DNA from: a bacterium
Lineage (GTDB): Bacteria > Cyanobacteriota > Vampirovibrionia > Gastranaerophilales > Gastranaerophilaceae
Assembly: GCA_017942035.1 (NCBI GenBank)
Contig: JAGAVG010000037.1
Coordinates: 1-64,000 of the forward strand
Length of the DNA: 64,000 bases
Reading direction: 5' to 3'
Each line of letters opens with the position of its first letter. The stretch's first letter is position 1. The translations under genes and the position numbers were made by a program. Below the pieces are notes generated by a model. The model did not search any database. It saw only the letters and a list, made by a program, of their open reading frames with translations, and was not told the origin of the DNA. Of this stretch, positions 4,440 through 35,697 are shown one piece after another.

Positions 4440-4612
4440 CATACACCAAATTTTATATTTTGGTGCGAGTTTTTTATAGCCTTATTATACAATATTTTCG
4501 AGCACATTTCAAGTGGTCATTTTGTTGTTTTTGTGAATTTTTTGGATTTTGAAAGGGTATGTTTTAGTTAGTTTCAGACCCACTCGCACCAAAATATAAA
4601 TTATGGTGCATG
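4440..4612 (+). repeat. prepilin leader cassette, copy A
   Basis: About 170 bp, nearly identical to copies at 34471-34643 (same strand) and 24889-25060 (reverse). The left end (4441-4464) is a palindrome with CACCAAA / TTTGGTG arms followed by GAGTTTTTT. The right end (4586-4609) is a second palindrome, GCACCA…TGGTGC. The two ends are also inverted copies of each other (about 27 of 30 bases by eye). Conservation continues through ATGAATTTAAAG almost to the ribosome site of the prepilin gene. It may be a duplicated regulatory 5' region or a MITE-like element. Confidence 0.8.
4484..4512 (-). promoter_or_regulatory. reverse promoter inside cassette A
   Basis: On the reverse strand TTGAAA (4512-4507), 17-nt spacer, TATAAT (4489-4484). 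It points away from the prepilin gene. The predicted start near 4477 is followed at once by the cassette-end hairpin and a T-rich tract near 4434, so the product would be an RNA of about 45 nt. Confidence 0.65.
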
Positions 4613-4650
4613 AATTTAAAGAATAGTTTAAGCCTGAAAAGGAGGATAAT

Positions 4651-5385
4651 ATGTTTAAAAATAGTCATTGCGAGCGAAGTGCAAGGAGGCAAAGGACGAA
4701 GGCTTTTACTTTGGCGGAAGTTCTTATTACTCTCGGGATAATTGGCATTGTTGCGGCGATGACCATGCCGGCGGTGATTACTAAGTATCATCAGAAAGTT
4801 ACCATTACTCAACTAAAAAAGGCGTATTCAACGCTTTCTCAGGTTATGATTTCGGCTTTCCCCGATGGCGATTTTTCACAAACAGAGATTCGCGACAGTA
4901 ACACTGTTCAGATGAAAAACTGGTTTTTAACTAACATTAAGCCTTATATGAAAATAACTAAGTATTGCATTGATCGTGCCGGCTGCTGGAATGATGGCAC
5001 TTATATGCTTAGCGGCTCAAAATATGCTTGGGATCAAGGTAACATCGGCATGGGATATAATGTAATTACATTTATTACTTCTGATGGATACTTTGTTAAT
5101 ATTGATGCATTTACTGAGAATAGTTATGGTAGATTTGGATTTAATAATGATGGCCAACATTATCTTATATTTTTTGTAGATGTAAATGGTGCAAAAAGAC
5201 CTAATATAGTCGGAAAAGATGTTTATGTTTTCGCCTTTGCTAAAGATAGGGGATTTATTACTCCAGGACGGGATTTAGAAGATAGTGCCGTTGATAGCAA
5301 TTGCAGCAACAACGGAACGGGTTTATATTGCACTGAAAAAATAATTCGCAGCGGATGGCAGACAAACAAAGTAAATTTCTGGTAA
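4651..5385 (+). CDS. type IV prepilin-like protein, copy A
   Basis: A 244-residue prepilin. A basic leader of 18 residues ends in TKA. The mature part starts FTLAEVLITLGIIGIVAAMT, with Phe at +1, Glu at +5 and an unbroken hydrophobic helix, as required by the prepilin peptidase PilD. After the helix come KAYSTLSQVMISAFPDGDF and a globular domain containing cysteine pairs (CIDRAGC, CSNNGTGLYC). Such proteins are built into pili or pseudopili in the cell envelope. The ATG follows AAGGAGG with a 6-nt gap. The leader (SHCERSARRQR) is the translation of the genome's TCATTGCGAG repeat. Behind cassette A; converges with the reverse-strand gene at 5394. Confidence 0.85.
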   Translation: MFKNSHCERSARRQRTKAFTLAEVLITLGIIGIVAAMTMPAVITKYHQKVTITQLKKAYSTLSQVMISAFPDGDFSQTEIRDSNTVQMKNWFLTNIKPYMKITKYCIDRAGCWNDGTYMLSGSKYAWDQGNIGMGYNVITFITSDGYFVNIDAFTENSYGRFGFNNDGQHYLIFFVDVNGAKRPNIVGKDVYVFAFAKDRGFITPGRDLEDSAVDSNCSNNGTGLYCTEKIIRSGWQTNKVNFW

Positions 5386-23893: not shown

Positions 23894-24847
23894 TTAGAAC
23901 TTAATCGGATAATCGTCTTTTATCTGCCAGCCGTCACGTCTTATTAACTCAGTGCAATAACCACTGGGACTTGTATGATAACCATCATCTCCAACTATTC
24001 TGCCAGTATTAGCATTGCATTTCTCAATCAACTCATCTCGCGTTAAATTTGGATATCTGGTGTTTGCCTCTGTGGATAAAGTCCAAGCATTATTTTTATT
24101 AGACATGGCAAAAGCGAATATTTCTCTGCCAAATAATTTTAAATTTCTTGTCGGTCTTAAAATTACATAGATAGGAGGAATATAAGCGGAATTTGTTCCT
24201 CCTCTTCCTGCCCAAAAGGCAATAACTGCACCATCAGCAAGACTGTAACACGCAGCATTGGTATCGGTATAAGTTGCAGAAGGATTGCTTTGAGGATGTG
24301 AAACCAGTAAGTTATCACATTCATCTTGCGGATATTTAAAATTCACTTTCAAATATGGTGCCAAATATTTGCCAAAAACTCTCTCTGCATTTTCCGGACA
24401 CCAACTATTTTGGACAAGCATATCGGTTACATCAAACCCAATACCGTGTTCGCTCTCAGCCATTCTAATAGCCTGTGAAAGACTTGAGTAAACTTTTTTC
24501 AATGTTGTTTCAGTTACTCTTTTCTGATAAGCACCAACTAAACCAGGAATAGTGAGAGCCGCCACAACCCCGATTATCCCGAGAGTGATGAGAACTTCCG
24601 CCAAAGTAAAACCCTGTTTTACCCTCTCTCTTTGTGAGAGGGTTGAATTTGTTAGTGAGCAGAATGCGAACTTACAAATTCGGGAGAGGGTTTTATAGCA
24701 AGATTCAATGTCACCCTGAACTCGTTTCAGGGTCTCAGTATCATGAGATGCTGAAACACGGAGATCAATCCGACGTTCAGCATGACATGTTTTTTCTGAT
24801 ACTGGCCTGCCTTCTTGCCCTTTTGCATTCTGTTCTTCTATATTCAT
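23894..24847 (-). CDS. type IV prepilin-like protein, copy C
   Basis: 317 residues from the ATG at 24847, chosen because GGAGG lies 8 nt before it; the ATG at 24862 would overlap that site. The leader is unusually long (79 residues) and ends VKQG, followed by mature FTLAEVLITLGIIGVVAALT. After the helix comes KVYSSLSQAIRMAESEHG and a globular domain with cysteines (NSWCPENAERV, DTNAACYSLADG, SGYCTELIRRDGWQ). The leader residues about 18-75 are translated palindromic repeats (CHAERRIDLRVSASHD; FCSLTNSTLSQRERV). The first residues (EEQNAKGQEGRP) match copy B (EEPKSRGQEGKQ). Behind cassette C. Confidence 0.82.
   Translation of the reverse strand: MNIEEQNAKGQEGRPVSEKTCHAERRIDLRVSASHDTETLKRVQGDIESCYKTLSRICKFAFCSLTNSTLSQRERVKQGFTLAEVLITLGIIGVVAALTIPGLVGAYQKRVTETTLKKVYSSLSQAIRMAESEHGIGFDVTDMLVQNSWCPENAERVFGKYLAPYLKVNFKYPQDECDNLLVSHPQSNPSATYTDTNAACYSLADGAVIAFWAGRGGTNSAYIPPIYVILRPTRNLKLFGREIFAFAMSNKNNAWTLSTEANTRYPNLTRDELIEKCNANTGRIVGDDGYHTSPSGYCTELIRRDGWQIKDDYPIKF
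24620..24790 (-). repeat. palindromic repeats inside the prepilin C leader
   Basis: 24620-24690 holds an ACCCTCTCTCTTTGTGAGAG hairpin and a partial inverted partner ending CGGGAGAGGG. 24709-24790 holds the CCTGAACTCGTTTCAGG and GATGCTGAAAC…GTTCAGCATGAC dyads. All are in frame and encode about 55 residues of the leader peptide. Related copies lie at 4319-4362, 19813-19845, 57601-57630 and 62762-62785. Confidence 0.8.
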
Positions 24848-24888
24848 CCTTTTGACCTCCATATTTTCATTAATTATCCTTTAAATTC

Positions 24889-25060
24889 ATGCACCATAAT
24901 TTATATTTTGGTGCAAGTAGGCCTGAAACTCACTAAAACATACCTTTTCAAAAATTAAAAAATCATCAAAAAATGACAAACGACCACTTGAAATGTGCCG
25001 GAAAATATTGTATAATAAGGCTATAAAAAACTCGCACCAAAATATAAAGTTTGGTGTATT
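24889..25060 (-). repeat. prepilin leader cassette, copy C
   Basis: Reverse-strand copy of the cassette at 4440 and 34471. Palindromic ends lie at 24891-24914 (gene-proximal) and 25034-25057 (gene-distal). The interior is nearly identical, including the 16-nt block CACATTTCAAGTGGTC and TATGTTTTAGT. Conservation again runs on through ATGAATTTAAAGGATAA towards the prepilin ribosome site. Confidence 0.8.
24988..25016 (+). promoter_or_regulatory. reverse promoter inside cassette C
   Basis: TTGAAA (24988-24993), 17-nt spacer, TATAAT (25011-25016), pointing away from the prepilin. Predicted start near 25023; hairpin 25034-25057 then seven T (25059-25065). Predicted RNA about 43 nt. It runs towards the 3' end of the GH57 gene. 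Confidence 0.65.
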
Positions 25061-34470: not shown

Positions 34471-34643
34471 CATGCACCAAATTTTATATTTTGGTGCGAG
34501 TTTTTTATAGCCTTATTATACAATATTTTCAGACACATTTCAAGTGGTCTTTTGTTGTTTTTTGATGATTTTTTGAATTTTAAGAAGGTATGTTTTAGTG
34601 GATTTCAGGCCCACATGCACCAAAATATAAATTATGGTGCATG
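34471..34643 (+). repeat. prepilin leader cassette, copy B
   Basis: Third copy of the cassette at 4440 and 24889. Palindromic ends at 34474-34497 and 34617-34640; in this copy both outer edges read CATGCACC / GGTGCATG. The first palindrome is followed by GAGTTTTTT, so it is also a possible terminator for the upstream 69-aa gene. Confidence 0.8.
34515..34543 (-). promoter_or_regulatory. reverse promoter inside cassette B
   Basis: Reverse strand TTGAAA (34543-34538), 17-nt spacer, TATAAT (34520-34515). It is followed by the cassette-end hairpin and a T-rich tract in 34460-34470, again giving a predicted short RNA directed towards the 69-aa gene. Confidence 0.65.
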
Positions 34644-34683
34644 AATTTAAAGGATAATTTAAGAAAATATGGAGGATAAAAGT

Positions 34684-35697
34684 ATGAGAAATGAGGAACC
34701 GAAGTCAAGAGGACAGGAAGGCAAGCAAGAAACGTCATTGCGAGTGAATAAAATGAGCGTGGCAATCTCGTCAAGAAAAAATAAATGGATTGCCGCGTCG
34801 CATACGCTCCTCGCAATGACGAAGAAATTCACATGTCATCCTGAACTTGTTTCAGGATCTCATGACACAGAGATTCCGAAACAAGTTCGGAATGACATGA
34901 ACCCCTCACCCCAACCCTCTCCCACAAGGGGCGAGGGAGTAAGTAGTAGGGTAGACTTTAGTCTACCGGAAAAACTTGCGTTTACCCTAGCAGAGGTTCT
35001 AATCACCCTCGGGATAATCGGGGTTGTGGCAGCGATGACGTTACCTACCATTGTTAATAACATTCGTCATAAAGAGCTTGAAACATCATTTAAAAAGGCT
35101 TATTCTTCTATAAGTCAGGCTTTAAAATTATATGAAGCGCAAAACGGTACTCCGCTTCTTCCGGGGGATATACCCACACGTAAATTAAAAGGAATGATAA
35201 TGCCGTATTTTAAAACGGTAAAAGATTGCGGATTGGGGAAGGCTAACTCTTCATCTGCCGAAAAAGCCTGTGTTCCAAATCCTGCGGGATGGAGTGAGCA
35301 GGATAAAACAGAAAATTACAAAGCTATTTACAAAAATTACAACGGAACTTCTGAAATTAACCTTTACGCGTTTGATGATGGTCAATTTGTAATAAATGAT
35401 GGGATGTTAATTTTAATTAATAATGATGGCGGAGGCACAAATGGCGGCAGAGATTTTCAAAAATGGATTTCTGTGGATGTTAATGGGTATAACAAACGCC
35501 CAAACAGGCTGGGACAGGATTTATTTATGTTTAGGCTCGGTGAATCAGGTAATCTTTTGCCGGGCGGCTCTGCTGGAGCATATGGAAATGGCACGATAGA
35601 TGCATATTGTTCTAAAACATCAACTGATCCGCAAAATGGAGTAGGTTGTGCAATAAAAGCACTTTCTGAGCCGGACTTTTTCAAAAATCTGCCGTAA
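34684..35697 (+). CDS. type IV prepilin-like protein, copy B
   Basis: 337 residues from the ATG at 34684, chosen because GGAGG lies 8 nt upstream; the ATG at 34669 overlaps that site. The leader has 99 residues and ends EKLA, followed by mature FTLAEVLITLGIIGVVAAMT. Then come KAYSSISQALKLYEAQNG and a globular domain with cysteines (VKDCGLG, EKACVPNP, DAYCSKTS, NGVGCAIKAL). Leader residues 18-46, 50-72, 73-86 and 88-91 correspond to four different palindromic DNA repeats placed end to end. The true mature protein should be about 238 residues. Pili or pseudopili in the envelope are the likely destination. Confidence 0.85.
   Translation: MRNEEPKSRGQEGKQETSLRVNKMSVAISSRKNKWIAASHTLLAMTKKFTCHPELVSGSHDTEIPKQVRNDMNPSPQPSPTRGEGVSSRVDFSLPEKLAFTLAEVLITLGIIGVVAAMTLPTIVNNIRHKELETSFKKAYSSISQALKLYEAQNGTPLLPGDIPTRKLKGMIMPYFKTVKDCGLGKANSSSAEKACVPNPAGWSEQDKTENYKAIYKNYNGTSEINLYAFDDGQFVINDGMLILINNDGGGTNGGRDFQKWISVDVNGYNKRPNRLGQDLFMFRLGESGNLLPGGSAGAYGNGTIDAYCSKTSTDPQNGVGCAIKALSEPDFFKNLP
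34733..34967 (+). repeat. four palindromic repeat families inside the prepilin B leader
   Basis: 34733-34821: CGTCATTGCGAG … CTCGCAATGACG inverted pair. 34832-34899: TGTCATCCTGAACTTGTTTC … GTTCGGAATGACAT. 34902-34940: CCCTCACCCCAACCC … GGGGCGAGGG. 34950-34967: GGTAGACTTTAGTCTACC. All four also occur in intergenic DNA here (16297-16429, 19813-19845, 57574-57656, 62797-62814). Total length is kept in frame with no stop. Confidence 0.85.

Follow-up and report, generated by a model that had tools for sequence, protein, structure and literature searches.

Each of the roughly 167-bp cassettes that precede prepilin genes in this genome is very probably an invertible promoter, a phase-variation switch that would stand mostly in its OFF orientation in the assembly. 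The window, by which we mean the whole 64,000-nucleotide stretch of DNA that was analyzed, contains three such cassettes at 4440-4612, 24889-25060 (reverse) and 34471-34643, where the original prediction had placed them, and a search of the genome for further copies, which that prediction had proposed, raised the three to 103 core copies at up to 3 mismatches, with no match to the reversed control pattern, and to 104 when up to 4 mismatches were allowed. The copies are spread over many contigs and occur in both directions. Many contigs terminate inside a cassette, presumably because it is a repeat of about 170 bp, as one would expect. The consensus order is a distal repeat D (27 bp), a core (113 bp) and a proximal repeat P (27 bp), followed by the prepilin gene. 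The corresponding features of the window are as follows.

4443..4469, + strand: distal repeat D of cassette 1, putative recombination site and predicted hairpin of the OFF-state terminators (sequence, pattern match; terminator-like on both strands)
4470..4582, + strand: putatively invertible 113-bp core of cassette 1, in the common (predicted OFF) orientation (alignment of copies)
4484..4512, - strand: predicted promoter of cassette 1, TTGAAA-17-TATAAT, directed away from the prepilin (11/12 to consensus; identical in 104/104)
4583..4609, + strand: proximal repeat P of cassette 1, putative recombination site (sequence, pattern match)
4651..5385, + strand: prepilin gene of cassette 1 (ORF; N_methyl PF07963; TIGR02532)
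23894..24862, - strand: prepilin gene of cassette 2 (ORF; N_methyl PF07963; TIGR02532)
24891..24917, - strand: proximal repeat P of cassette 2 (sequence, pattern match)
24918..25030, - strand: putatively invertible core of cassette 2, in the common (predicted OFF) orientation (alignment)
24988..25016, + strand: predicted promoter of cassette 2, TTGAAA-17-TATAAT, directed away from the prepilin (11/12 to consensus)
25031..25057, - strand: distal repeat D of cassette 2 (sequence; terminator-like on both strands)
34474..34500, + strand: distal repeat D of cassette 3 (sequence; terminator-like on both strands)
34501..34613, + strand: putatively invertible 113-bp core of cassette 3, in the common (predicted OFF) orientation (sequence and alignment)
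34515..34543, - strand: predicted promoter of cassette 3, TTGAAA-17-TATAAT, directed away from the prepilin (11/12 to consensus)
34614..34640, + strand: proximal repeat P of cassette 3 (sequence, pattern match)
34669..35697, + strand: prepilin gene of cassette 3 (ORF; TIGR02532; PF07963 match below its cut-off)

The palindromic, mutually inverted ends that had been described for the cassettes were borne out. D (GCACCAAATTTTATATTTTGGTGCGAG) and P (CTCGCACCAAAATATAAATTATGGTGC) are both dyads with the common layout GCACCAAA-8-TTTGGTGC and are inverted copies of each other with 2 mismatches over 27 bp, and the end palindrome pattern GCACCAAAATATAAATTATGGTGC occurs 6 times in the window, precisely at the six cassette ends, where 0.00 matches were expected in shuffles. 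Inverted repeats around a short segment, here 113 bp, are what is looked for in an inverton, and an invertible promoter would explain why the palindromic ends are inverted relative to each other. Conservation reaches 99% from the -10 box to D and is lowest in the 13 nt just inside the spacer (77%). On the gene side, a conserved ATTTAA comes after P and the flank remains conserved past the repeat, while beyond D and its outer run of T the copies share 31% identity, i.e., the DNA is unrelated. A second conserved core segment, GGTATGTTTTAGTGAGTTTCAGGCC (34587-34611 in the window), occupies the same place in all copies and might be where an accessory factor binds. An Rfam scan of the window returned two tRNAs only, with no structured-RNA or riboswitch family matching the cassette.

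The promoter scan found a single strong match in the core, 11/12 to consensus in all three window copies. This promoter, TTGAAA-N17-TATAAT, lies on the strand facing away from the prepilin, and its hexamers and spacing are identical in 104/104 core copies, so that the segment between the repeats carries a promoter pointing one way in every copy, as judged by consensus match. Outward of D there is a T-run, positions 4-6 being T in 95-99% of the 98 copies; no T-run was found next to P when flanks were compared across copies, in a tally that took in one distal end (L093). In keeping with this distribution, the terminator scan of the three window cassettes gave two sites per region, one for either direction and both at D; P gave none. 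With the core oriented as in most copies, the promoter would thus fire into a terminator, and readthrough from upstream would also meet one. We had considered TTATTATACAAT as a gene-facing -10 box and rejected it, as the good cassette promoter is on the other strand; weak promoter matches in relatives (L117, L118) that might have supported it were likewise set aside, since those promoters serve a divergent gene.

In the mechanism that we propose, one sigma-70-type promoter in the 113-bp core would be enclosed by a pair of inverted 27-bp recombination sites. While the core keeps its common orientation, the transcript would run away from the prepilin into a terminator formed by D and the outer T-run, leaving the prepilin OFF, and D with a T-run inside the core would act as a second terminator against upstream readthrough. 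Recombination between D and P would flip the core only, and the flipped promoter would read through P, which lacks a T-run, and on across the ribosome-binding site into the prepilin, turning it ON. With about 100 scattered switches, one per prepilin, and near-identical sites, one recombinase could suffice in trans. We infer that flipping is active now and that the two orientations correspond to OFF and ON expression, the direction resting on consensus matches to promoters and terminators. The original prediction had suggested a common control module, and it was right as to control; the mechanism, an invertible promoter, it had left unnamed.

Which enzyme might flip the cores was approached through a search of the genome, which gave five tyrosine-type recombinase matches (XerC, XerD, two further integrases and an enzyme of 181 aa) and six serine-type ones. 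The 181-aa enzyme, encoded at C69:88163-88705, 24 kb past the window, consists of a catalytic domain only; the N-terminal domain usual in such enzymes is missing. It has both the family match and the catalytic residues of a tyrosine recombinase: the PF00589 match is above cut-off (1.7e-27), H129 and R132 (HxxR), H155 and Y164 are invariant in 8 homologues, and the first Arg, R41, is present in 7/8. It is distantly similar to FimB/FimE and Xer profiles, and also to Xer structures, and does not reach the FimB/FimE family cut-offs (48 bits vs 222, and 30.9 vs 221). Among 117 family genomes, 79 encode homologues, and an inverted repeat (score at least 14, spacing 70-260 bp) lies beside 11 of 30 such loci as compared with 1 of 60 control loci. 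These recombinase-linked repeats are single and similar in size to the cassette, with a spacer mostly of 122-158 bp, and several are located just 3′ of the recombinase gene. The repeats of the closest homologues carry the cassette half-site TTTGGTGC. The repeat in G108, GCACCAAAATAATAAATTTGGTGCGTTTTT, is nearly the cassette D, T-run included; that in G043, ATTTTGGTGCAA, lies ahead of a neuB-like gene; and those in G074 and G115 have AAAATGATGC and GGTGTA. More distant homologues have different half-sites (ACAACA, TCTTACA). That half-site and recombinase vary together is the main reason for naming the 181-aa enzyme, which we consider the probable invertase of the cassettes. No inverted repeat adjoins its gene in this genome, and it would therefore act in trans. 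The enzyme is also common in relatives without the cassette.

Alternatively, a different enzyme may flip the promoters, either XerC/XerD or a serine-type recombinase, which we regard as possible but rather doubtful. The genome does encode XerC, XerD, two further integrases and the six serine-recombinase matches, and 27-bp dyad sites would also suit some serine invertases. However, in relatives it is homologues of the 181-aa enzyme with which the half-site and the inverted repeat are associated, and in this genome the surroundings of the other recombinases showed no long inverted repeat. At three loci in relatives (L189, L190 and L279), the recombinase-linked repeats precede genes resembling those for UDP-galactopyranose mutase, asparagine synthase and NeuB, so surface glycans may be switched there.

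An invertible core should be encountered in both orientations. We classed each junction by which core end meets which outer flank, and counted 98 core-left/D and 90 core-right/P junctions of the common type, the latter including one that the script mislabelled (L093). Inverted-type junctions, 3-4 of each kind, were found at six loci, at which the promoter is turned toward the prepilin. One orientation thus accounts for about 95% of junctions, and both orientations are observed, in the assembly rather than in reads. One locus, L068 (C77:56983), is a complete reversed copy, its core 92% identical to the inverted core and 51% to the forward core. There the order is D flank with T-run, reversed core, and P flank with standard leader and ribosome-binding site, then the prepilin, such that the core alone is reversed and both outer flanks are in place. 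Three others are partial, with core-left joined to P (L070, L236) or core-right joined to D (L062). The remaining two (L076, L257) are hairpin contigs in which a single D flank adjoins both ends of the core; unless they are artefacts, these would need both orientations to be present in the sequenced material. Repeats are most prone to misassembly at contig ends, and five of the six inverted cases lie there; L068 is inside an 83-kb contig. In principle, all six could still have arisen as artefacts of the library or the assembly. Three further candidates with the prepilin on the other side (L033, L035, L085) were rejected as inverted and left uncounted, being divergent neighbors or ambiguous.

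If these reversed copies were all assembly errors in repeats, the cassette could be a fixed regulatory module of a prepilin regulon that undergoes no inversion. A core repeated more than 100 times, contigs that often end in it and the predominance of a single junction orientation would agree with such a module. It is nonetheless improbable: in every common copy the sole strong promoter is directed away from the gene, an arrangement that would be senseless if fixed, the ends share less than 20 bp, which is probably too short for most assemblers to misjoin, and in L068 the whole core is reversed between intact flanks.

All assessable cassettes are associated with prepilins. The prepilin N-terminal motif has 129 matches in this 2-Mb genome, and when the genes downstream of the cassettes were tabulated, a prepilin stood behind the gene-side end in all 76 assessable cases, an end being assessable if at least 600 nt of sequence beyond the cassette lay within the genome stretches fetched. 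Six more apparent gene-side ends without a prepilin were distal ends picked up by the loose pattern and were excluded. The numerous copies without a prepilin that would speak against the association were thus not found. Conversely, among 112 distinct prepilin starts, 89 have a cassette and 9 do not; the other 14 are truncated by the end of a contig. The claim that the cassette is better conserved than the genes it serves held when the two were compared separately, as divergence among cassettes is far below that of the coding sequences: mean pairwise identity is 89.5% for cassettes, whereas mature prepilins past residue 40 reach 25% as protein and 42% as DNA. Within prepilin leaders, in-frame dispersed repeats (SRVDFSLPEKLDC, NPSPQPSPTRGEG, CHAERRIDLRVSASHD, NTLAPCGRGQGEG) were seen in the window (24600-24862, - strand; 34669-34990, + strand) and in most cassette-linked prepilins, and leaders with such repeats extend up to 100 aa or more ahead of the cleavage motif. 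The motif itself is partly duplicated in tandem at L043, L083, L094, L109, L085 and L035, with FTLAEVFSSHFAGRRK ahead of FTLAEVLITLG. At L026/L114 and L105, two prepilins diverge from cassettes that stand back to back within a few hundred bases of each other.

Polymorphisms in all 85 full-length cassettes of the genome are near linkage equilibrium beyond 15 nt, and all four combinations occur at 557 of 595 pairs of polymorphic sites. This implies recurrent mutation or an exchange of short tracts between the cassette copies, and near-equilibrium of this kind is a sign of intense exchange between cassettes. One could accordingly suppose that the cassette and the N-terminal coding region serve as homology blocks for swapping prepilin heads, as in silent-copy pilin systems. 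The steps in identity from cassette to N-terminal region (70-71%) to head fit this, as does the near linkage equilibrium. We nevertheless find head swapping an unlikely function, given that each copy comes with a full-length gene and a leader of its own, that heads have already diverged like unrelated family members, and that the conserved promoter, T-run and inverted ends do not require it. Recombination of new heads, which the original prediction had also raised, may instead occur as a side effect of the cassettes and is not needed to account for their anatomy. Returning to the invertible promoter, we are evenly divided on a fuller version of it, in which one short tyrosine recombinase would control in trans some 100 or more independent ON/OFF prepilin promoters with built-in OFF terminators and so open an enormous combinatorial space of surface filaments, with the switches exchanging sequence among each other and thereby holding the sites uniform as the heads diverge.

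The cassette was sought in related Gastranaerophilales, as the original prediction had advised, and no copy was present in 382 other genomes of the family, both congeners being without it; 38 relatives plus genome and viral contig collections likewise gave no copy, the weak matches being short fragments. The earlier suggestion of a MITE-like mobile element that inserts ahead of prepilins matches the cassette in size, copy number and terminal inverted repeats, but is scarcely credible given a prepilin at every assessable gene-side end instead of gene-independent dispersal, a gene-side flank conserved past the repeat, the reversal at L068 of the core alone between fixed flanks, and the absence of the cassette from the other family genomes and the genome collection.

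Recombination is known to vary the expression of type IV pilins in Neisseria, by gene conversion from silent copies, and in Moraxella, by invertible pilin genes. In those cases coding sequence is replaced or switched at one expression locus, whereas here each gene would have its own invertible promoter. In the RecV-dependent switches of Clostridioides difficile, terminators take part in OFF states, as we propose for the cassettes. That system likewise has one tyrosine recombinase and several scattered inverted-repeat switches, but these are few and have different targets (PMC5386303, PMC8844915), whereas here one uniform switch would serve one gene family. E. coli fimS with FimB/FimE (PMC9993118) is similar in having an invertible pilus-gene promoter and tyrosine recombinases of ~180-200 aa without an N-terminal domain; it differs in being one 314-bp switch with short repeats for one operon, as opposed to about 100 putative 167-bp switches, one per type IV-like prepilin, and the 181-aa candidate is far below the cut-offs of the FimB and FimE families. 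The capsule promoters of Bacteroides fragilis are invertible under the serine enzyme Mpi, according to PMC11868660, which cites Coyne 2003 and Jiang 2019, and a survey of a 125-strain gut community, which comes closest in scale among the published work found, reported up to 181 invertons in one genome, with 72 members in the largest repeat-homology group (PMC11892184). These gut invertons resemble the cassettes in having a promoter between short inverted repeats, both orientations, surface genes as targets and many sites per recombinase. They belong to another lineage, however, and Mpi is a serine enzyme where our candidate is of the tyrosine type; the ~104 copies found here, with near-identical core and sites and all on one gene family, also exceed the 72 of the survey's largest repeat-homology group, which spans its 125-strain community. 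The open-licence literature yielded no paper that connects Gastranaerophilales with invertons or phase variation. Invertible promoters are thus known, and a family this large and uniform on one gene family is, as far as we have found, new. If our reading is true, flipping of single switches could change the cell surface, and there would be a testable reason for 129 prepilin-motif genes in 2 Mb, most being silent and few on at once. With about 100 pairs of recombination sites on one chromosome, one would also ask what keeps large rearrangements from arising between cassettes.

Relatives have prepilin families of 10-100 members without the cassette, and inverted repeats upstream of ~60 prepilins in six of these relatives revealed no cassette in common. 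Poly-G tracts of 7-14 were observed in or before prepilin leaders of relatives without the cassette (L199, L201, L213, L215 and L223 in G009; L196 and L208 in G015; L158, L163 and L170). Such tracts could permit slipped-strand switching, and, if they do, switching of prepilin families would have evolved by two routes.
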